Shown piece after piece: positions 39,232 to 51,131 of a stretch of 64,000 nucleotides of DNA (position 1 is its first letter; each line of letters opens with the position of its first letter). Below the pieces are notes generated by a model. It was not told the origin of the DNA. It worked only from the letters and a program-made list of their open reading frames with translations, and did not search any database. Made by a program: the position numbers and the translations under genes. The stretch covers positions 7,617,717-7,681,716 of the forward strand of contig NZ_AP018290.1 of the NCBI RefSeq assembly GCF_002368415.1, in the 5' to 3' direction. Origin of the DNA: Calothrix sp. NIES-4105 (GTDB taxonomy: Bacteria; Cyanobacteriota; Cyanobacteriia; Cyanobacteriales; Nostocaceae).

Positions 39232-41124
39232 ATGTTAACTACATTGACTCTTCAGTATTTTAAATCTGTATGTAACAAAACGACACTTCAAATAGCACCA
39301 TTAACAATATTTGCAGGCGCCAACAGTTCTGGTAAAAGTACAATTATTCAAAGTTTGTTATTAACGACTCAAACATTACAAAACCCTATACCTTCTCGCC
39401 CAGTAATACTAAATGGTCATATTTTGAAAATTGGTGCTTTCAATGATATTGTTTATAACCAAGAATCAGAAAATATATTGATTGGCTTTGAACTTAAGCC
39501 AACCGTTGATGAGCATAAAAGTTCTATTGCTATATCTAGATGTTTTCATGATTTACGCATAAATGAAGTATTAAGCTCAACTAGTTGCTCTTTTCTATTC
39601 TCATCTCGTGGGTCTAAAGATACAAAAGAAATAATGCAGTTACACCCTAGTTTAGAAGAATGCCAAATTGGTGTTAAATATAACTTAGAAAATATCTCGA
39701 ATGAAGAAGTAATACACATTCGTAGAAGTAAAAAAACAGTACAACAAAGAATAAAAGATAATCAGATATCAAAACAAAGCCTGAATAAAGCTGAGGTTGC
39801 GTCTCTAGAATACGAAATTGTAAAGCCAGATGCTTTAAGATATTATGCATTTCCTGAAAACGCCAAACCATTAGGAGCGTTACTTAACCACTTTTTACCA
39901 GAGAAGATTTCTTTCGCTTTGGATGCACTTGAGGAACAGTCAAGACAAATTATAGACTTGCTAATAGGTCGAGAAGAAGCTTGTTTTCAGAGAACAAGAC
40001 ACATTTTACTACTTCAAAATATATTTAACGAAAATATAAAAGCAATTATTTTATCGATTCTAACAGATGCTATAAATGAAAATTATGCTAATGGGATATT
40101 AAAACTTAAAAAGGCTGAATTACTTGATGTTATTAGTAAATTAGATACAAATTTTGCGTTAGATAAATTGATGAAATTTATTTATGATTTACCTATTGAT
40201 ATAAGACAAGCTGTAAAACAAAATATTTTGGAAAAAGAAAAATTATATGAGCTTATTCAAGCTATTAAGGCAGGACGAAATGCAGAATATCGGCTAGCGT
40301 ATTTTCCTTTACCAAAAATGTTAGAACTAGCTGTTGATTATACCCAGGAATTTTTTACTAGATTTGTCAAATACCTAGCTCCATTAAGAGATGAGCCAAA
40401 ACCAGTTTACTCGCTTGCGGGGGCAACAGATTCTAAAGATGTAGGTTTTAGAGGAGAACATACAGTTGCTGTTTTGGAAGTTCATCGCAATACTAAGGTA
40501 GAATATATACCTAGCGAGCAATTAAAATCTGGCGCCATTTCTTTTACTCCTATTTCTGAATTTTTACCAAAAGCTGTACTAGATTGGTTAGAGTACATGG
40601 GTGTTGCAAGTGATATAAAAACGGTAGATAAAGGAAAGCTAGGTTATGAACTCAAAGTTGTAACTGGTAACTCAGGCGCCTTACATGACCTTACCCATGT
40701 GGGAGTTGGCGTTAGTCAAGTACTTCCAATACTAGTTCAATCTTTGTTAGCAGAAAAAGGCTCAACATTAATTTTTGAGCAACCTGAACTACACCTACAT
40801 CCTCGTGTACAAACACGTCTGGCAGATTTTTTTATATCAATGATAATGTTGAAAAAGCAATGTATCATTGAAACACATAGCGAATATTTAATAAATAGAC
40901 TTCGTTATTTAGCAGCAGCCTCAGAAGGTGAAAATATTTCACAGAATGTGCTGATGTATTTTGTAGATAAGCAAAACGGTGAATCTGTTTACACACCGAT
41001 AAAGCTAAATAAATTTGGAGTTTTAGAAGACTGGCCAAAAGGCTTCTTTGATGAGAATGAAGAAAACGCAAGAGCCATTTTAAAAGCGGCAATACAGAAA
41101 AGAAAGAGAGAGCCAATTAAATAG
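39232..41124 (+). CDS. AAA ATPase with DUF3696 C-terminus
   Basis: A 630-aa ABC/SMC-like ATPase. Walker A GANSSGKST at 29-37 follows LTLQYFKSVCNKTTLQIAPL; near the C-terminus are GVGVSQVLPILVQSLLA, Walker B STLIFEQPELHLHPRVQ and IIETHSEYLINRLR. The end LNKFGVLEDWPKGFFDE is the DUF3696 signature. A long helical insert lies at about 190-400. Such ATPases often act in defence with a nuclease partner. The next gene starts 6 bases on, so the two form an operon. Confidence 0.88.
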   Translation: MLTTLTLQYFKSVCNKTTLQIAPLTIFAGANSSGKSTIIQSLLLTTQTLQNPIPSRPVILNGHILKIGAFNDIVYNQESENILIGFELKPTVDEHKSSIAISRCFHDLRINEVLSSTSCSFLFSSRGSKDTKEIMQLHPSLEECQIGVKYNLENISNEEVIHIRRSKKTVQQRIKDNQISKQSLNKAEVASLEYEIVKPDALRYYAFPENAKPLGALLNHFLPEKISFALDALEEQSRQIIDLLIGREEACFQRTRHILLLQNIFNENIKAIILSILTDAINENYANGILKLKKAELLDVISKLDTNFALDKLMKFIYDLPIDIRQAVKQNILEKEKLYELIQAIKAGRNAEYRLAYFPLPKMLELAVDYTQEFFTRFVKYLAPLRDEPKPVYSLAGATDSKDVGFRGEHTVAVLEVHRNTKVEYIPSEQLKSGAISFTPISEFLPKAVLDWLEYMGVASDIKTVDKGKLGYELKVVTGNSGALHDLTHVGVGVSQVLPILVQSLLAEKGSTLIFEQPELHLHPRVQTRLADFFISMIMLKKQCIIETHSEYLINRLRYLAAASEGENISQNVLMYFVDKQNGESVYTPIKLNKFGVLEDWPKGFFDENEENARAILKAAIQKRKREPIK

Positions 41125-41130
41125 TTTAAG

Positions 41131-42189
41131 ATGTATTACCTGTATTTAGATGCATTTCTACTTGCTTGCCCAAAATCAAGCACAAACATTCAAGAATTTG
41201 AAGAATATCTCAATAGTCTTATTAAGTGGGGTGAAGAAATAGACAATATAAGAGATGCAGGTTTAGCATCTATATATCTGTCTGCACAAACTCCTGAAGC
41301 ACTAGCAAAATCTTATGGATACCCAGATTGGGATGAACTAGACAAAATTATTAAAAACCTTGACATGCAAGATGTAGTACAACCGCATGATATTTTTGTT
41401 CTAATAGATGGGTTATTGAGATTGCCGTATATAGAAGATAAACTCAGTATAAATGAAATATTATTAGATAATTTTCAGTGTGAGCCATCTTCCCATTTGG
41501 ATGAAAGAGATGAACTCTTTGTAGAAATACATCATCGTCTAGCTGCGCTGATATTTTTGATGTGCCACTTTGAATCTGTTTTAGAAAAGAACCAAATTTT
41601 AATTACTCGTCACAATGATGATAAGCTTAGACAAATATCAATCAGTGGAGAAATTATAGATTGTGAGTTTTGTACAGATTCAAGAAGTATCCAGTATTAT
41701 CCCTACCCTATTAGCATATTATTAAACTACTTTATTAAGCCAGAGAGTTTATATTCTTATTTTGATGCCTTGGATATTTGGGTGAGTGCGACTAGTGACG
41801 AATTATACTTAAGGGCTATTAATATTTATGTTATTCAAATAAATTATTCTCTACAAAAACCAAAATCTAAGCTGGAAATGACCTCTTGGTCTTTCGGAAA
41901 CCGTTTTATAAAAACAGCTAAAGATAATGGTTTTCTCAATGACCAAGCAAAAGCCAAAATGCTTCTTCGGTCATGCGCTGAGACTATCTTAAAAGAAAAT
42001 TTGAGCGATACTCACTGGCTAAGAACAGGTAAAGGAGCTAATAACCCTCAAAGGAAACGTGAAAAAGATAAAGCACTAGCTTGGAGAAGAGATATCGACC
42101 GCGAATATCATCTACATTATTGGGAAACAGCTAAGGGTGTAGAATTTGCCTCAGTTGTAGTTCATAATGATATGAAAATTCCTGAGTAG
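41131..42189 (+). CDS. Partner protein of the DUF3696 ATPase, 352 aa, unknown
   Basis: Begins MYYLYLDAFLLACPKSSTNI and shows no signal peptide. The C-terminus is striking: LSDTHWLRTGKGANNPQRKR, then LAWRRDIDREYHLHYWETAK and VEFASVVVHNDMKIPE. It is rich in Trp, His, Arg and Asp and could form a nuclease or nucleotide site. The middle part is helical with an MCHFESVLEKNQI segment. I do not recognise a named family. Six bases separate it from the ATPase gene, so it is probably its effector. Confidence 0.75.
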   Translation: MYYLYLDAFLLACPKSSTNIQEFEEYLNSLIKWGEEIDNIRDAGLASIYLSAQTPEALAKSYGYPDWDELDKIIKNLDMQDVVQPHDIFVLIDGLLRLPYIEDKLSINEILLDNFQCEPSSHLDERDELFVEIHHRLAALIFLMCHFESVLEKNQILITRHNDDKLRQISISGEIIDCEFCTDSRSIQYYPYPISILLNYFIKPESLYSYFDALDIWVSATSDELYLRAINIYVIQINYSLQKPKSKLEMTSWSFGNRFIKTAKDNGFLNDQAKAKMLLRSCAETILKENLSDTHWLRTGKGANNPQRKREKDKALAWRRDIDREYHLHYWETAKGVEFASVVVHNDMKIPE

Positions 42190-42572: not shown

Positions 42573-42920
42573 GGTTTCTTGAACACTAAATTTTAGTTTT
42601 AGTATACCCCATAAGTAATCAGGAAGGAAATTTTACATTAATGCCATGTCTAAGTACTTAACGCTCACTCTGTCACTACTTGAATAAAGGCGCCTGTGTT
42701 TTACCAGTATATAAAACTTAAACCGCTCATACCTTTTGATAAACGCACTTAATTATATATAGCAGTCCTAGATGATTTGTAAAAAATGCCTAAATGTAGA
42801 GACGCGAAATTTCGCGTCTCTACAACGCGCGGATTTACCTGCGGTACACTTCGTGAACACAAATGATTTAGGATTGCTATACAATAGCTAAGTAAGGGTG
42901 TTTAGTAACGGAAGTAAAAC
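42573..42920. other. Spacer with palindrome upstream of the ParA-like gene
   Basis: No gene is seen. It contains a 30-bp perfect palindrome at 42795-42824 followed by AACGCGCGG and a TTTAG-rich stretch before the ParA-like start. Confidence 0.5.
42795..42824. repeat. Perfect 30-bp palindrome TGTAGAGACGCGAAA...
   Basis: TGTAGAGACGCGAAA followed by its exact reverse complement TTTCGCGTCTCTACA. It is kin to the palindrome at 17097-17122 (same TAGAGACGCGA arms, different centre). Confidence 0.8.
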
Positions 42921-43568
42921 TTGATAATTCTGTGTACTCACAACAGTGGAGGGGTAGGTAAAAGTACCTTGGCTATTCATGCTGCTGGTGCTTTAATAGC
43001 TTCGTCAGAGAAAACGCTTGTGATAGATTGTGATGAGCAGTCTGATTCATGGCAATTTTATACTGGTAGAATACCAACTCAAGCTCAGGATGCTGATACA
43101 GATGGTTACAGGGCAGTTATCTCTAACAAAGAACGTAAGACTGTTAAGGCTTTAGCTTTAAAAGGATTCGACCATATTGTTTTAGATATTGATACTCCTC
43201 TAAAAAATACAGTTCAAGTTATTGTGGGCAACAACCCTGACCTTGTATTAGTGCCTGTAAATAAGTCTCAAGAACTCAAAGCATTACGTAATCTTCCAAA
43301 AACATTAAAAGTCGTTTCTCAACTAGCGAAGCCTGGTTTTTCCCCAAAAGTTATTGTTGTTCCTCTTGGAGTGGCACAAGAAAGCATTTTAGAGGTGATT
43401 GATAAGATAGATGCAAAGAATAAGCCAAATACTTGTAGAGTTGCTAATGCAATGCCTGATTTACAGGATAAAATGCAATTAGCTATCTATAAAGATAGAA
43501 AGTATATTTGGAGTTATGAAGGGTACGAGTATCTGCTTGTATATTTCAACTCGCTAATCAAAACTTAA
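42921..43568 (+). CDS. ParA/MinD-like ATPase with altered Walker A
   Basis: A 215-aa protein starting at TTG 42921 with GGAAG about 8 bases upstream. It opens MIILCTHNSGGVGKSTLAIH. The P-loop GGVGKST is intact, but the signature lysine of the deviant Walker A motif (KGGxGKS/T) is replaced by Ser. ALIASSEKTLVIDCDEQSDS and HIVLDIDTPLKNTVQVIVGN supply switch and Walker B segments. It resembles small ParA proteins of plasmids and mobile islands. It is followed after 11 bases by the 155-aa gene and then a nuclease gene. Confidence 0.82.
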   Translation: MIILCTHNSGGVGKSTLAIHAAGALIASSEKTLVIDCDEQSDSWQFYTGRIPTQAQDADTDGYRAVISNKERKTVKALALKGFDHIVLDIDTPLKNTVQVIVGNNPDLVLVPVNKSQELKALRNLPKTLKVVSQLAKPGFSPKVIVVPLGVAQESILEVIDKIDAKNKPNTCRVANAMPDLQDKMQLAIYKDRKYIWSYEGYEYLLVYFNSLIKT

Positions 43569-43579
43569 AGGAGATAGGC

Positions 43580-44047
43580 ATGTCTGTAAGTAACTACAAC
43601 AATGAATCAGAGGATTATATCGTTGAACAAGCTATTGCCGAAGGTTTGCAGCAAGCGGCTGAAGCGGAACCAGTATTAGAAGTTACGCTTGAGTTTGACG
43701 ACGAGCAATTAAAAAAAATTCAGCAACTGACGTTAGCTTTAGAATTATCTGTTACTGATTTATTAGATACAGCTGTTGGCTATGTTTATTTTAATCGAGA
43801 TGACGAAGAAGTTAAAAAACTGTTGGAGGAATGTGTAAATAAAGCTAAAAATAATTCAGTTGAAGATGAGTATAATCGAGATTTTATAACCTCTATAGCG
43901 CGCTTTAAAAAATTGGTATTAACAGCTTTAGTTGCTCACAAACTTCGAGTATTGGGAATGACAGATAACATTTATGAATGTGTTACCACAGGAATAAATT
44001 TGCTTTATGAAAGATTAATTACACACAAAACCAAAGTTGCAAGTTAA
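43580..44047 (+). CDS. Unknown 155-aa protein in the ParA-like/nuclease operon
   Basis: Preceded by AAAGGAGATAGGC, an excellent ribosome-binding site. The product is acidic at the N-terminus (NNESEDYIVEQAIAEGLQQA) with a possible ribbon-helix-helix-like stretch, LEVTLEFDDEQLKKIQQLTL then ALELSVTDLLDTAVGYV. A helical second half (ITSIARFKKLVLTALVAHKL) follows. It could be the ParB-like or DNA-binding adaptor of the ATPase. The family is not recognised. Confidence 0.65.
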   Translation: MSVSNYNNESEDYIVEQAIAEGLQQAAEAEPVLEVTLEFDDEQLKKIQQLTLALELSVTDLLDTAVGYVYFNRDDEEVKKLLEECVNKAKNNSVEDEYNRDFITSIARFKKLVLTALVAHKLRVLGMTDNIYECVTTGINLLYERLITHKTKVAS

Positions 44048-44057
44048 TGCATTGATA

Positions 44058-44513
44058 ATGGATTACATTGAAACTACCGCATTAGTTGATGGAATTATAT
44101 ACTCCGATTCTTCTGTCAAGCAAGACCTTGGGCGCCGCTTTGCTGTCTATCTTGGTTTAACTCCAGGTTCAGCAGGAGCAGATGGTGGGATTGATGGAGA
44201 AGGAGAAATTAATGGGGAAAAAATTTATTTCCAATCTAAATTATCCCGAAAGTCTTTAGATGCTTCATACGTAGCGGATTTTTGGGGTAATATATCAATT
44301 TATCAAGCAAGTATTGGCGTATTATTAGCAGGTATTGGTTATACACCGGGTTTTATGTCCAAGTTAAATAAATGTCCAAATATAGATAAGTTAAAAATTC
44401 ATCTACTTACATTAGAAGATATTTTTACAGAAAGTTCTATTTTTGAGCAAGCTTTATTAGATTTACCTCCGCTACGAGATTTAAGTAGCGGTGAGTGGGC
44501 ACGCTTTAAATAG
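44058..44513 (+). CDS. Mrr-like PD-(D/E)XK restriction endonuclease
   Basis: A 151-aa nuclease from ATG 44058 (MDYIETTALVDGIIYSDS). The core AGADGGIDGEGEINGEKIYF followed by QSKLS gives the Mrr pattern G-x-D-G-G-I-D...Q-x-K. The earlier TTG at 44037 would overlap the previous gene. Mrr-like nucleases cut modified or foreign DNA. It is the third gene of the ParA-like operon, which suggests an ATPase-directed nuclease system. A DUF3696 tail remnant follows it. Confidence 0.78.
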   Translation: MDYIETTALVDGIIYSDSSVKQDLGRRFAVYLGLTPGSAGADGGIDGEGEINGEKIYFQSKLSRKSLDASYVADFWGNISIYQASIGVLLAGIGYTPGFMSKLNKCPNIDKLKIHLLTLEDIFTESSIFEQALLDLPPLRDLSSGEWARFK

Positions 44514-44527
44514 AGTTAAAATTGGCG

Positions 44528-44611
44528 ACTGTAAAGCTGAATAAGTTTAGAGTTTTAGAAGACTGGCCAAAAGGTTTCTTTGATGAGCAAGCTACCTCAG
44601 ATTTTAAGTAA
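44528..44611 (+). pseudogene. Remnant of a second DUF3696 ATPase gene (C-terminal tail)
   Basis: Reads TVKLNKFRVLEDWPKGFFDE then QATSDFK and a stop, nearly identical to the end of the ATPase at 39232-41124 (IKLNKFGVLEDWPKGFFDE). The nucleotide text is also close. The preceding 580 codons are absent. It shows that a DUF3696 gene once stood here, or that a recombination copied its tail behind the nuclease operon. Confidence 0.8.
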
Positions 44612-44968: not shown

Positions 44969-45484
44969 TTAACCAGCGGCTTCAAGCGATTGTCGAATGT
45001 CCTTGAAGAGCAAAAGCAGGTGCAGGGGATTGGTTGGAGATTCTTCCATGCCGAATTTGAGGTAAAAGGCGCGGGCTTCGTCGTCTTTAGCATGGACAAG
45101 AAAAGCGCGACCGCCAATGGTTTCAGCCCCCGCTAGGGAGCGGCGTAGCGCGTTGCGGAACATGGCTTTACCTAAGCCTTTTCCCTGTTCGGCTTTGTCT
45201 ATGGCAAACCGCGCCATAAGAATAACCGGCACGGGATAACGCCCCTGCCCTTTCATGACACGAGCGGGAACATCGTCCGGCGATACGGACGCAGGGGCAA
45301 GACTGTAATAGCCAATGACGCGCTCGGTGCGGGTCAGGACATAGGTTCTAGCTCCGCCGCTTGCCTGATTTTGCAAAGCGTATTTAATCAGGAAATCATT
45401 AAGTGGTGGCTTGCCACAATCAAAATCCGCAATGATATGACTTTTGGCAAGCAGAATAGGCTCATTTAAAGGCTCACTTTGCAT
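44969..45484 (-). CDS. tacT: GNAT toxin, TacT/AtaT type
   Basis: A 171-aa GNAT acetyltransferase toxin: FDCGKPPLNDFLIKYALQNQ, VIGYYSLAPASVSPDDVPAR, the acetyl-CoA loop DKAEQGKGLGKAMFRNALRR, and DDEARAFYLKFGMEESP with the catalytic Tyr. Family members acetylate charged aminoacyl-tRNAs and stop translation. It follows tacA by 23 bases. Codon use and GC are visibly higher than in neighbours (many GCG, CGC, GGC), which points to recent transfer, probably from a proteobacterium. Confidence 0.88.
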   Translation of the reverse strand: MQSEPLNEPILLAKSHIIADFDCGKPPLNDFLIKYALQNQASGGARTYVLTRTERVIGYYSLAPASVSPDDVPARVMKGQGRYPVPVILMARFAIDKAEQGKGLGKAMFRNALRRSLAGAETIGGRAFLVHAKDDEARAFYLKFGMEESPTNPLHLLLLFKDIRQSLEAAG

Positions 45485-45507
45485 TAAAACAATTCCAGTT
45501 CCTTACA

Positions 45508-45789
45508 TTAGAACGGTTCTAGTTCGCTAAAGAGCCGCTGTAATTCTGGAACAACTTTCGGCGGCGCGTCAAGACGTTCACAGAACGCTTCCCACTGGTC
45601 GGGCGGCAAGGGAAACTCGGTTTGATACATCAGAATAGCATTCGCAGCATCAAGCGATGCTTGCAGGACAAACTTGCTTACATTCGTGTGCCGGACTCGT
45701 GCCGCTTCTGCCAGTATTGCCTTTTCCGCCTCCGTTGCGCGAATGGAAAGCCGCGTTTCTTTTGGCGTAGCGGCTGCTGCCTCAAACAT
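45508..45789 (-). CDS. tacA: DUF1778 antitoxin, TacA type
   Basis: A 93-aa ribbon-helix-helix antitoxin: PKETRLSIRATEAEKAILAE then ARVRHTNVSKFVLQASLDAA, and the toxin-wrapping C-terminus LPPDQWEAFCERLDAPPK. ATG 45789 with GGAG upstream decides the start; the open frame to 45834 is spurious. It is transcribed with tacT and should repress the pair. GC-rich like tacT. Confidence 0.9.
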   Translation of the reverse strand: MFEAAAATPKETRLSIRATEAEKAILAEAARVRHTNVSKFVLQASLDAANAILMYQTEFPLPPDQWEAFCERLDAPPKVVPELQRLFSELEPF

Positions 45790-46128
45790 GATTTTTCTCC
45801 TATAGTTATTCTTGTATTCCCAATGTACACCCAAAAGCGTGAAAACTGCAATTTATTTAAATGCGGTCGCACCCACAAGCCCATTTTTCCCTAACGGAAG
45901 TTAAGCAAGACTTATGAATCGACAGGAAATCACCGATAAGAATTTGTGAATTAGTGGGTTGAGGAACGAAAAATGGGGCATTAGTGCTGGTAGGCTAACA
46001 AAGTGTTCTATGTAAACGGGATTTACAATTTGTTGTATCCAAAGCTACATCAAAAACCTGGTTAATCCCTTATGAATGCAAATGCTTTAAAATAATAATG
46101 GTAAGCCTTTGCTACAAACTCTAAGCCT
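45790..46128. other. Gene-free spacer upstream of tacA and hicB
   Basis: AT-rich DNA typical of the host flanks the GC-rich tacAT block here, with the shift close to 45790. No gene, repeat or insertion-sequence end is recognised. Confidence 0.4.
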
Positions 46129-46372: not shown

Positions 46373-46711
46373 ATGCAAGCAGATAAATATCCATTTGCCC
46401 AAGAACTTATTACCGATACCCAAGGGAATATTCGTAAGGTTGTAATAGATTTTAACGATTATCAACATTTACTTAAAGCGCTAGAAGTTAGAGGGTTAAC
46501 CCAAACAACCGTAAAAACCCCAGAAAAAAGCCTAATTAGTCAGGAAGAACTCGATAAATTTGACCCAGTGAAGCAACATGAAACTTTGAGCAAGTTAATG
46601 CAAGAGTGGGAAGAAGATGATGACGATGAACAAGAACAAACAGAAACTTGGGAATTTCTTCGTAAAGCGTTAGATGAAGACCGTCTTTCTAATAGACCGT
46701 TATTTCCATGA
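46373..46711 (+). CDS. Antitoxin of a PIN-domain toxin module
   Basis: A 112-aa acidic protein: MQADKYPFAQELITDTQGNI then KVVIDFNDYQHLLKALEVRG (Phd/YefM-like start) and a highly acidic C-terminus (WEEDDDDEQEQTETWEFLRK). It overlaps the PIN gene by ATGA, typical of antitoxin-toxin pairs. Its role is to bind and silence the PIN nuclease and probably its own promoter. Confidence 0.72.
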   Translation: MQADKYPFAQELITDTQGNIRKVVIDFNDYQHLLKALEVRGLTQTTVKTPEKSLISQEELDKFDPVKQHETLSKLMQEWEEDDDDEQEQTETWEFLRKALDEDRLSNRPLFP

Positions 46712-47160
46712 GTCAAGTAGTATTATTAGACTCTGGCCCTTTGGGAATGGTAACAAACCCAAAAGCATCTTCTATAGAAGTTCAGGAATGTAAATTGTGG
46801 TTCAATACTTTGCCACAGAGAAATTACATAGTTATGCTCCCTGAAATTACTGATTATGAAGTTAGACGTGAATTATTACGTGTTGGTAAAATAAAAAGTA
46901 TTAGGCGCCTAGATAGACTTAAGTTACAAATTCCATACCTTCCACTAACAACTGAAACAATGCTTTTAGCCGCTCAGTTATGGGCAGAAGCAAGACTGAG
47001 AGGAAGACCAACAGCAGAGCCTTCAGCATTAGATGGCGATGTAATTTTAGCAGCACAAGCAATGTTACTAGAAAATCAAGGGTATGAAGTGGTAATTGCA
47101 ACAACTAATGTAGGGCATTTATCGCAATTTATAGATGCTCGTGAATGGCGTGCAATTTAA
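46708..47160 (+). CDS. PIN-domain (VapC-like) toxin
   Basis: A 150-aa PIN RNase: D8 in VVLLDSGPLG, E46/E51 in PEITDYEVRREL, D109/D111 in SALDGDVILAAQA, and N134 in ATTNVGHL. The four acidic residues of the metal site are present, so it should be an active RNase, probably cutting tRNA or mRNA. It overlaps the antitoxin gene by four bases. Confidence 0.85.
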   Translation: MSQVVLLDSGPLGMVTNPKASSIEVQECKLWFNTLPQRNYIVMLPEITDYEVRRELLRVGKIKSIRRLDRLKLQIPYLPLTTETMLLAAQLWAEARLRGRPTAEPSALDGDVILAAQAMLLENQGYEVVIATTNVGHLSQFIDAREWRAI

Positions 47161-48902: not shown

Positions 48903-49645
48903 TTTGCTGGAAACAGAAAGAAATAGCTAGTTATGGAAACACCAATGCATGTAATAAAATTACGTACCCATACTGAACTGACCTTACGCGCGAGGAAAGC
49001 ACTACTATATCCACCAATTAAAGCACCAACTGCCATCAAAATTGCACTTGACCAGACAATAATGCCTGCTGCAATAAAGTGAAGTAAAGCGCAAGCGTTT
49101 AAAGTTGTTGCTAACCAGCTTTTTACAGCATTCATCGTGTGAATACTTTTGACACCCATCATTTCTAGAATAGCCAGTATCACAATACCACCACCGCCAC
49201 CGAAAAAACCTCCATATATCGCAATCAAGAACTGCAAAATCATTACCAACCACATTGGTAATTTAAAACGATTTTGCAACCAGCTATTAATTCGCTTGCC
49301 AAATGCAAATAACAATGTGGCAGTTAGCATCAGATATGGAATTAAACCAGCAAAGCTTTTAGAGGGAGTATGCAACAGTATATATGAACCTATCGTTCCT
49401 CCTAAAACACTTGCTACAGTCAATACGAATAATTCCCAGCGACGAATTGACATATCTTTACGATAAGCAAATGTTGAAGCAGCAGTTCCTACCCACATCG
49501 CGGCTGTATTTGTTGCGTTTGCTGGTATTGGTGGAACTCCAACGAACATTAATGCTGGAAATGCAATTAAACCTCCTCCACCAGCAACACCATTCATGGC
49601 GCCTGCAATTATAGCGACGGCAAATAAAAATAAATTAGATAACAT
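48899..49645 (-). CDS. TauE/SafE family sulfite/anion exporter
   Basis: A 248-aa membrane protein with about eight hydrophobic segments. Family motifs are GAMNGVAGGGGLIAFPALM near residue 15 and the repeated IYGGFFGGGGGIVILAILEM around 145. Both are glycine-rich re-entrant motifs of TauE/SafE permeases. The substrate is an organosulfonate, sulfite or other anion, not decidable. It starts at the stop codon of the methyltransferase gene. Confidence 0.9.
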   Translation of the reverse strand: MLSNLFLFAVAIIAGAMNGVAGGGGLIAFPALMFVGVPPIPANATNTAAMWVGTAASTFAYRKDMSIRRWELFVLTVASVLGGTIGSYILLHTPSKSFAGLIPYLMLTATLLFAFGKRINSWLQNRFKLPMWLVMILQFLIAIYGGFFGGGGGIVILAILEMMGVKSIHTMNAVKSWLATTLNACALLHFIAAGIIVWSSAILMAVGALIGGYSSAFLARKVSSVWVRNFITCIGVSITSYFFLFPAK

Positions 49646-50391
49646 TAACTTTCCCTCATAGCAACAATTCGCAGATGCCGATAATCAACTGTCCAAGTTC
49701 CGTTCTTGTATAAGATAGGTTTAAGCTGTTCTTCTACTGTTTTAATTACTTCTTGCCGTGTAGAGTTAGCAAAGAATCTGGTAGCGAACATCGTAAGCCA
49801 ATTTCTTAAACCTGCTTCTCCATCAGGTAACGGTGTTGGAAGGTCGAATAGTACTGCGTAATTAACATCAAAACCCTGTTTTTCTAATAGACTCGTGTAT
49901 TCTCCTATGCTAGGGAAGTACCAAGATAATGATTCAGGTGATTTTTGTTCTAAAGCTTGGTAGAGTGCATGTGTAATTAATTTGACATCACCTTTACCGC
50001 CAAATGCTGCAACAAAGCGACCTCCTGGCTTTAATGCACCGTGAATAGAATTTATTACAGCTTCTGATTCTGGTATCCAATGCAACGTAGCATTTGAAAA
50101 TACTGCATCAAATGATGTGTTGAATTGGAATGAGCGCGCGTCTGCTACTACAAATTCTAAATTGGGATAATTCAGCTTTGCTTTTTCAACCATTGCTGCA
50201 TCAGCGTCTATTCCTGTTACTATGGCGCCATTCGCTGCTATTTTTGCGGCAAGTTGTCCTGTACCACAGCCAACATCTAAGATTTTTTCTCCTGGTTGTG
50301 GGGACAGTAACTTAAGTAGGTCTTCACCATATTTCCAGACAAACGCATGTTTACCCTCGTAAAGGTTTGTGTCCCAAGTATTGGATAACAT
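49645..50391 (-). CDS. Class I SAM-dependent methyltransferase (copy A)
   Basis: A 248-aa methyltransferase: KILDVGCGTGQLAAKIAANG at 37-56 (SAM motif I), VTGIDADAAMVEKAKLNYPN (motif II) and FDAVFSNATLHWIPESE. It is like trans-aconitate methyltransferases (Tam). It is about 85 % identical by eye to the next gene upstream (50391-51131), with stop and start codons sharing bases. Substrate unproven. The presence of acnB elsewhere in the window is only circumstantial. Confidence 0.88.
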   Translation of the reverse strand: MLSNTWDTNLYEGKHAFVWKYGEDLLKLLSPQPGEKILDVGCGTGQLAAKIAANGAIVTGIDADAAMVEKAKLNYPNLEFVVADARSFQFNTSFDAVFSNATLHWIPESEAVINSIHGALKPGGRFVAAFGGKGDVKLITHALYQALEQKSPESLSWYFPSIGEYTSLLEKQGFDVNYAVLFDLPTPLPDGEAGLRNWLTMFATRFFANSTRQEVIKTVEEQLKPILYKNGTWTVDYRHLRIVAMRES

Positions 50392-51131
50392 TAACTTTCC
50401 CTCATAGCAACAATTCGCAGGCGCCGATAATCAGCCGTCCAAGTTCCGTCTTTATATAAGATAGGCTTAAGTTGTTCTTCTACTGTTTTGATTACTTCTT
50501 GCTGTGTAGAGTTAGCAAAGAACCTAGTTGCGAACATCATAAGCCAATTTCTCAAACCTGCTTCTCCATCAGGTAAAGGTGTTGGACGGTCGAATAATAC
50601 TGCATAGGTAACATCAAAACCCTGCTTTTCTAATAGGGTTGTGTATTCTGCAATGCTAGGGAAATACCAAGATAATGGTGATTTTATTTCTAAGGCTTGA
50701 TAGAGTGCATCTGTAATTAATTTGACGTTACCTTTACCGCCAAATTCTGCAATAAAGCGACCTCCTGGCTTTAACGCGCGGTAAATAGAACTTATTACAG
50801 CTTCTGGTTCTGGTATCCAATGCAACGTCGCATTTGAAAATACCGCATCAAATTCTCTATCAAATTGGAGTGAGCGCGCGTCTTTTGAAGCAAATTCTAA
50901 ATTGGGATAATTCAGCTTTGCTTTTTCTACCATTGCTGCATCAGCGTCTATTCCTGTAACTATGGCGCCCGTATCAGCTATTTTCGCAGTCAGTTGTCCT
51001 GTACCACAGCCAACATCTAAGATTTTTTCTCCTGGTTGGGGGGAGAGTAAGTTGAGTAAGTCTTCACCGTATTGCCAGACGAACGCATGTTTACCCTCGT
51101 AAAGGGCTGCGTTCCAAGTATTTTGAAGCAT
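50391..51131 (-). CDS. Class I SAM-dependent methyltransferase (copy B)
   Basis: A 246-aa tandem duplicate of the gene at 49645-50391, with the same KILDVGCGTGQLTAKIADTG and FDAVFSNATLHWIPEPE motifs and the same last ten residues (RLRIVAMRES). It is the first gene of the leftward operon, divergent from the LysR gene. Differences cluster at 85-180, so the pair could have different substrates. Confidence 0.88.
   Translation of the reverse strand: MLQNTWNAALYEGKHAFVWQYGEDLLNLLSPQPGEKILDVGCGTGQLTAKIADTGAIVTGIDADAAMVEKAKLNYPNLEFASKDARSLQFDREFDAVFSNATLHWIPEPEAVISSIYRALKPGGRFIAEFGGKGNVKLITDALYQALEIKSPLSWYFPSIAEYTTLLEKQGFDVTYAVLFDRPTPLPDGEAGLRNWLMMFATRFFANSTQQEVIKTVEEQLKPILYKDGTWTADYRRLRIVAMRES

Follow-up and report, generated by a model that had tools for sequence, protein, structure and literature searches.

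Why would an ATPase of the DNA-segregation type be encoded together with a nuclease? The question is raised by three open reading frames (ORFs) lying head-to-tail on the + strand of a 64,000-nt stretch of DNA (hereafter the window) from Calothrix sp. NIES-4105 (NZ_AP018290.1, positions 7,617,717-7,681,716), which encode, in this order, a ParA-like ATPase, a 155-aa middle protein and a small nuclease of the Mrr type. The frames were found at the positions (42921-44513) where a preliminary description of this DNA, made from its letters alone, had proposed a three-gene operon. On comparative evidence, the operon is a real, conserved, self-contained and co-inherited module, and as such it couples a DNA-segregation type ATPase to a nuclease as a conserved cyanobacterial unit. 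Tentatively, and with somewhat less than even confidence, this trio is read here as a mobile, stand-alone conflict cassette that most likely serves in defense.

Linkage and movement of the three genes

When 291 genomes of the same order as the window were searched with the window nuclease, relatives were found at 45 places in 32 genomes. The preliminary description had named as its own check a search for conserved gene order with the 155-aa protein as bait. This single protein finds 20 places in 19 of the 291 genomes, and a nuclease match adjoins it in 19 of the 20 (at L050 on a contig edge, at L043 with the nuclease in two pieces); at the remaining place (L033), ParA and nuclease persist as remnants only. 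Homologues of the three genes do occur together, and the separation that would have spoken against an operon was not seen. A profile of the middle protein matches 36 of the 291 genomes at an expectation value (E) of 1e-3, and at E <=1e-5 it marks 41 places in 32 genomes, a count that leaves out five weak places (E 7e-5 to 5e-4; four genomes have nothing else). The nuclease lies directly 3' of the middle gene in 40 of these 41 places, and the middle gene directly 5' of the nuclease in 41 of the 45 nuclease places. The profiles (A1, A2) were built from linked copies and are biased to that extent; the single-protein baits (P0002, P0003) are free of this bias. Both genes occur in 31 genomes, the middle gene only in G088 and a collapsed nuclease only in G289. 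The four nuclease places without a counted middle gene comprise this collapsed locus of G289, a 46-residue fragment (G176:C3), a locus where ParA is accompanied by a divergent middle-gene frame outside the count (E up to 0.01; G126:C1:2683623, L103) and an open nuclease frame with no middle-gene match, whose flanks were not looked at (G097:C1:1144549).

The same arrangement recurs in a scan of a named genome collection, which returned 23 loci, 22 of them cyanobacterial and one from a metagenome-assembled genome of Candidatus Parabeggiatoa. In all 23, nuclease and middle gene are direct neighbors (the nuclease of L074 being a contig-edge stub), and a ParA frame of at least 88 aa lies upstream in 20. 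Of 386 genomes sampled across the phylum, 25 match the nuclease profile; 13 matches are strong (E <=3e-27), all from the same order, and the other 12 are weak (E 3e-5 to 1e-3) and belong to frames of 182-504 aa. Among 72,556 plasmid records the nuclease has one match, on a plasmid of S. elongatus UTEX 3055 that bears the full trio (L051). A phage origin was also considered, and was rejected for lack of any match among 50,697 phage records and of any relative among the 325 pattern stretches on viral contigs. On the UTEX 3055 plasmid, a second ParA gene, a DUF3102 gene and a tyrosine integrase gene (L051:4947-7308) lie on the opposite strand, some 1.6 kb away from the trio.

Co-inheritance is also suggested by the evolutionary distances. 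Across 33 distinct complete trios, the pairwise distances of the three proteins correlate at 0.847, 0.871 and 0.835, values reached in none of 2000 permutations each (relatedness was not removed). In all 18 gene comparisons from six pairs, the ratio of nonsynonymous to synonymous substitution rates (dN/dS) is below 1 (0.10-0.66). The middle protein evolves fastest, with a mean column identity of 27% vs 45-47% for the other two, as is often the case for sensors.

The borders of the unit were drawn by pairwise DNA comparison of four loci (L053 from Nodularia, L054 from a Nostocales isolate, L056 from Dolichospermum and L058 from Trichormus). In all six pairs, the left edge of an aligned block falls at -23 to +1 relative to the ParA start and its right edge at -1 to +15 relative to the nuclease stop, and five of the six have no other common piece longer than 120 bases within 5 kb (L056/L058 have two more, further downstream). 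The unit of 1.6-1.7 kb is found at different sites in different genomes; where two copies share a site (e.g., L062/L064/L070 and L071/L072), the alignment extends past the trio borders, as expected. Among ten Planktothrix genomes, one site is occupied by the trio in three; in the other seven, the flanks of this site are separated by 53-64 bp. The left flank includes a repeat also present elsewhere. A nuclease search covering six of these seven empty-site genomes (G586 lay outside it) found no match in G140, G239 and G273 and another copy elsewhere in G075, G190 and G245. No integrase or transposase gene is present inside the unit, and no terminal repeat was seen by eye at the Planktothrix junctions. 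When neighborhoods of about 10 kb were compared between loci with nucleases less than 75% identical, neighbor families were common to 21 of 236 locus pairs, and no further commonly linked gene emerged. With such clear borders and empty sites, knock-out and transfer tests would be easy to design.

Features of the three proteins

The window ParA matches the Pfam families AAA_31 (6.7e-10) and CbiA (4.1e-9) above their cut-offs. Its Walker A motif reads S-G-G-V-G-K-S, with serine at residue 9, and the protein was rightly described at the outset as lacking the signature Walker lysine. K14, D36, D38 and D89 are invariant in all 20 aligned ParA rows, and the protein has the P-loop features of the ParA/MinD deviant Walker A class, namely GGxGK[ST] together with the Walker A' and B aspartates. 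In relatives, the signature position is occupied by S, D, N, G or K. Starting from 48 ParA rows, 10 outside 200-280 aa and L043 (site missing) were dropped, leaving 37 to be scored. The signature lysine is absent from 27 of these, all of which carry a second lysine, K120, in an SQxxK-like stretch; it is present in the other ten, none of which has K120 (L, L, L, R, W, W, F, D or gap). The two lysines are thus mutually exclusive in 37 of 37 proteins. On a tree built without these two columns, five changes are needed (bootstraps 4-5), of which two are forced by well-supported branches; for example, L004 and L005 (signature lysine, no K120) stand beside L050 (D at the signature position, K120) with support 100/99. 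An independent-pairs test yields two pairs on well-supported branches and five on all branches (sign test p 0.5); with two pairs, significance is out of reach.

The nearest solved structure to the window ParA is McdA (6non/6noo; E 6e-5), in which K151 reportedly takes over ATP-sandwich formation. In the HMMER alignment, the McdA lysine is placed like K120, before the same helix, and a profile alignment puts a two-residue gap elsewhere. According to PMC8262871, type 1 McdA proteins lack the signature lysine and type 2 proteins have it. Type 1 McdA shares with the window ParA both this absence (SGGQGKT) and a lysine before the helix that follows an 'IP' strand (PMC8262871, PMC9178275). It differs in its large mid-protein extension and in its Q-rich, coiled-coil partner McdB (PMC8262871), whereas the window ParA has 215 aa, no such long extension and a linked nuclease, and the model of the trio's partner is not McdB-like. 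When a profile of the family is used, the PF-32 protein 3k9g (4e-11) outscores McdA (2e-9). The window ParA is probably an active ATPase, because the lost signature lysine goes with the second lysine K120; inactivity through the missing lysine is disfavored by this exact exchange. Whatever the trio does, the mutually exclusive lysines offer a natural experiment on the ParA-defining residue and add a second system to the exception known from McdA.

The middle protein has no significant match to a Pfam, NCBIfam or PADLOC family, in agreement with its earlier listing as unknown. Its AlphaFold2 model (23 rows; mean predicted local distance difference test score, pLDDT, 76.8; predicted template modeling score, pTM, 0.65) consists of an N-terminal helix followed by two beta-alpha-alpha units, which does not support a McdB-like partner. 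Ranks 1-9 of the Foldseek search are taken by chains of an entry titled 'F plasmid relaxosome' and by DndE, the best with probability 0.92 and E 0.18 (range 0.18-1.4). The tool gives the entry title only, and the relaxosome chain is presumably TraY. Both TraY and DndE are tandem ribbon-helix-helix (RHH)-like proteins; they belong to unrelated systems, and no sequence similarity to the middle protein was found. Comparison of the two halves of the middle protein by hhalign scores 15.4 vs 11.6 for the best of 30 column shuffles, at a probability of only 14.6%. The middle protein is predicted to be tandem-RHH-like, and it may bind DNA.

The nuclease was assigned to the Mrr type of PD-(D/E)XK enzymes from the letters, and the assignment stands just above the threshold of Pfam Mrr_cat (2.1e-4; 21.8 bits vs a cut-off of 21). 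Its AlphaFold2 model (pLDDT 86.4, pTM 0.82) matches EcoT38I best in Foldseek (2.3e-4), followed by AspBHI (2.2e-3), MspJI (2.6e-3) and Cap4 (1.4e-2). It has the D...QxK site in common with these enzymes and differs from them in its low TM-scores (0.37-0.49) and in the lack of a specificity, target-recognition or sensor domain. RNA polymerase subunits (Rpb5) are also among the matches; Rpb5 has an endonuclease-like fold in common with such enzymes. D49, D53 and Q66 are conserved in all 41 distinct nucleases of at least 140 aa and K68 in 38, so that the D-D-QxK residues, whose loss would have told against the proposed system, are kept in 38 of 41. In the other three (L026, L027, L101), K68 is replaced by R while the ParA and middle frames are open, and these nucleases are possibly inactive. 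In PADLOC 2.0.0 the nuclease matches PDC-S02 only, at 0.0048.

Possible functions

A conflict system would fit several features of the trio, which is patchily distributed, moves as a unit, decays often and combines a conserved nuclease with a fast-evolving adaptor. In such a cassette, an ATP-bound ParA dimer would coat or scan DNA, and the middle protein, acting as ParA partner and DNA adaptor, would bring or license the small Mrr-like nuclease onto foreign DNA, be it phage or plasmid. The middle protein may, in addition, act as a repressor of the operon or keep the nuclease in check before a trigger arrives. Because the nuclease lacks a specificity domain, its targeting is proposed to depend on the middle protein. 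In a more specific version, possible but doubtful, a ParA gradient on the nucleoid would patrol DNA together with the tandem-RHH partner, and the target-blind Mrr nuclease would cut DNA that is not organized like the chromosome. If true, such ParA-powered restriction would be, to our knowledge, the first case of a partition ATPase directing a nuclease, in a family whose signature lysine is repeatedly exchangeable for a second lysine. Wadjet and other anti-plasmid systems likewise combine an ATP-driven DNA machine with a nuclease (PMC10586767); the motor of Wadjet is an SMC complex, whereas that of the trio would be ParA. PADLOC 2.0.0 has no match to ParA or the middle protein up to E 0.1, and Pfam and NCBIfam cover the general ParA and Mrr_cat folds only. 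Literature searches aimed at the trio, with closed-access papers and preprints outside their reach, found no description of it. The trio may be an undescribed defense or DNA-conflict system, whose three parts are of known kinds and whose combination is new as far as we know.

Several observations weigh against a ParA-driven, DNA-targeting defense cassette. The RHH fold of the middle protein has no Pfam or PDB sequence match behind it and no significant E in Foldseek (best 0.18), conservation is lacking at its ribbon residues, and acidic isoelectric points prevail in all three proteins (medians 5.3, 5.5 and 5.9). At seven loci (L021, L057, L059, L060, L062, L063, L069), ParA is broken, truncated or missing while the nuclease frame stays open; ParA may be dispensable, or these copies may be dead. 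ParA is reduced to its first 15-18 codons directly 5' of the middle gene at L057:782-864 and L063:6201-6300, with the stub fused in frame to the middle gene at L063, and no ParA is left at L069. The reverse decay, a broken or truncated nuclease beside open ParA and middle frames, was found at L007, L043 and L068. Openness was judged by ORFs for the middle gene of L007, L027, L060, L062 and L068 and for the nuclease of L021, whose reference ORFs start too far upstream. Additionally, some copies have housekeeping neighbors, including alaS (L060, L061, L068), genes for peptidyl-tRNA hydrolase and a RuvX-like protein (L062) and an aminotransferase gene (L033). Of ten picked neighbors, three matched PADLOC families and seven had no match at 1e-8, and enrichment in defense islands is therefore not claimed.

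The foremost rival, unlikely in our estimate, is a partition-linked toxin (addiction) module, in which the RHH protein would be both ParA partner and repressor or antitoxin and the nuclease a toxin that harms cells losing the cassette. The delta-omega-epsilon-zeta cassette of pSM19035 combines a short ParA, an RHH partner and a toxin in one stabilization cassette; the toxin is a kinase, and omega is a short single RHH protein with operator repeats. The trio resembles it in its gene order (ParA, RHH-like protein, possible toxin), and the ParA profile matches PDB 2oze, Orf delta', over positions 3-44 only (6.1e-7). It differs in having a nuclease and a tandem unit of about 155 aa, and no repeats were found. 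Likewise, type Ib partition systems (ParF-ParG) comprise a small ParA without an N-terminal helix-turn-helix domain and a small partner, but the trio has a nuclease as its third gene, lies nearly always in large chromosomal-type contigs and shows no centromere array. The persistence of the middle gene at 41 of 45 nuclease places, while ParA is often lost, would make sense if the middle protein holds the nuclease in check; ParA itself is not needed as an antidote, since it is lost while the nuclease frame stays open. However, at 14 of 15 loci the 260 bases upstream showed no centromere-like repeat array (40 first-order Markov shuffles per locus; with k=8 none of the 15 exceeds them, with k=10 only L065). 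Absence of the cassette is tolerated in Planktothrix G140, G239 and G273, which have the empty site and no nuclease match. The nuclease of L057 is open although its middle gene lacks a normal C-terminus, and so is that of G097:C1:1144549, where no middle-gene match was found (flanks not looked at). The suggestion of the preliminary description that the trio stabilizes a mobile island is disfavored: the unit stands alone at its sites, upstream arrays are missing as above, and one plasmid and no phage record matched.

Less probable still is plasmid incompatibility, whereby ParA and its partner would disturb partition complexes on plasmids entering the cell, an activity attributed to the orphan ParA protein ParI, and the plasmid left stranded would be removed by the nuclease. 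The ParA active-site chemistry seems kept, yet in S. elongatus UTEX 3055 the cassette is itself plasmid-borne, and nothing points to plasmids as its targets.

A homing-like selfish element, whose nuclease and adaptor would cut empty sites so that repair spreads the cassette, would explain insertion in the absence of an integrase or transposase in the unit, but is quite improbable. In line with homing, some comparisons show lower divergence in the trio than in the flanks. Between the window and Calothrix sp. PCC 7103 (L052:8885-10477), ParA differs at 1.7% and the middle gene at 2.6% of bases vs 7-16% for the flanks, and the synonymous divergence (dS) is 0.06-0.09 for ParA and the middle gene vs 0.24 for the nuclease, low values that could reflect either recent exchange or constraint. 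Trio and flank identities are 91.8% vs about 75% for L056/L058 and, with a slight difference, 74-79% vs 65-72% for L066/L067. By contrast, the aligned blocks of L062/L064/L070, L060/L068 and L071/L072 span trio and flank with no clear difference in divergence, and conserved coding sequence or ordinary transfer accounts for the rest. Furthermore, the contexts vary widely, with no common target sequence noticed (no systematic test was made), and we know of no homing system with an ATPase. Finally, an McdAB-like positioning module for some cargo, with the nuclease merely co-transcribed, is the least probable of these readings: McdA is the nearest solved ParA (6non/6noo, 6e-5) and has the lysine arrangement in common, but among the linked genes the nuclease is conserved best and remains attached to the others, and no further gene is commonly linked.

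Gene boundaries and neighborhood

The coordinates of the operon are collected in Table 1. The 11-base gap between the ParA and middle genes had been given correctly. The 'small overlap' reported between the middle gene and the nuclease gene is present only with the TTG start at 44037, whereas the ATG start leaves a 10-base gap. Because most nucleases in the homologue alignment begin at the residue encoded by the ATG, this is the most likely start, and the overlap is probably a start-codon artefact. The 12.0-Mb genome carries the nuclease in one copy, and among named genomes the most similar locus is that of Calothrix sp. PCC 7103 (nuclease 95% identical).

Table 1. Coordinates of the operon and its leader in the window.
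Feature	Position	Strand	Remarks
Leader upstream of ParA	42880..42920	+	Common to Calothrix PCC 7103; promoter and ribosome-binding signals likely here
ParA/MinD-type ATPase gene	42921..43568	+	215 aa, TTG start; Walker A S9 (signature-lysine site), catalytic K14, Walker A' D36/D38, Walker B D89, substitute K120
Middle gene	43580..44047	+	155 aa; ATG preceded by Shine-Dalgarno-like AGGAGA (read directly); predicted helix 12-27, then beta-alpha-alpha units 33-71 and 109-154, tandem RHH-like
Mrr-like PD-(D/E)XK nuclease gene	44058..44513	+	151 aa from ATG 44058; alternative start TTG 44037 gives 158 aa; motif D49-x3-D53 ... Q66-x-K68 (158-aa numbering)

About 40 bases 5' of the ParA gene, just upstream of the leader, lies an insertion of about 121 bases (42759-42880) that resembles a miniature inverted-repeat transposable element. 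The insertion ends in inverted repeats (TATAGCARTCCTA..ATTTGT / ACAAAT..TAGGATTGCTATA), contains a palindrome and is missing at the Calothrix PCC 7103 locus. Directly 3' of the nuclease gene, a short frame (44530-44611; KLNKFRVLEDWPKGFFDE), read directly, resembles the DUF3696 end of the gene at 39232-41124 and is probably a remnant of a second DUF3696-type ATPase gene.

The trio had further been placed within a defense island, which holds in part for the window and not for all copies. In the window, an AAA_15/DUF3696 ATPase gene (39232-41124; PADLOC NsnB, 4.3e-70) is followed after 6 bases by a gene of 352 aa with no family match, and this pair (39232-42189) does not align to anything in the part of the Calothrix PCC 7103 locus that was compared. 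Two toxin-antitoxin-like pairs lie downstream, one of a TacA-like antitoxin and a GNAT acetyltransferase (44969-45834) and one of a RelB-like protein and a weak PIN match below cut-off (46373-47160). Defense-type genes also lie near L051 (AbiD, which adjoins the trio on the UTEX 3055 plasmid, and a piece of a type I restriction endonuclease gene), L065 (the end of a type IIG restriction-modification gene) and L053 (mad3-like), whereas several other copies adjoin the housekeeping genes named above. A scan of 136 neighbor proteins from 19 loci (of 146 from 20 loci, leaving out eight of L064 and the two longest) gave matches to 288 Pfam and 109 PADLOC families, the 25 most frequent of each being mainly TPR, DUFs, zinc ribbons, tRNA synthetases and kinase matches. 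At L066:4120-13898 and L067:4293-13951, the trio lies inside a conserved cluster of PknG-like kinase, PP2C, VWA and FHA genes (assigned by Pfam for L066 and by homology for L067). Further downstream in the window, two tandem, closely similar genes of 246-248 aa (49645-51131) resemble S-adenosylmethionine methyltransferases by sequence.

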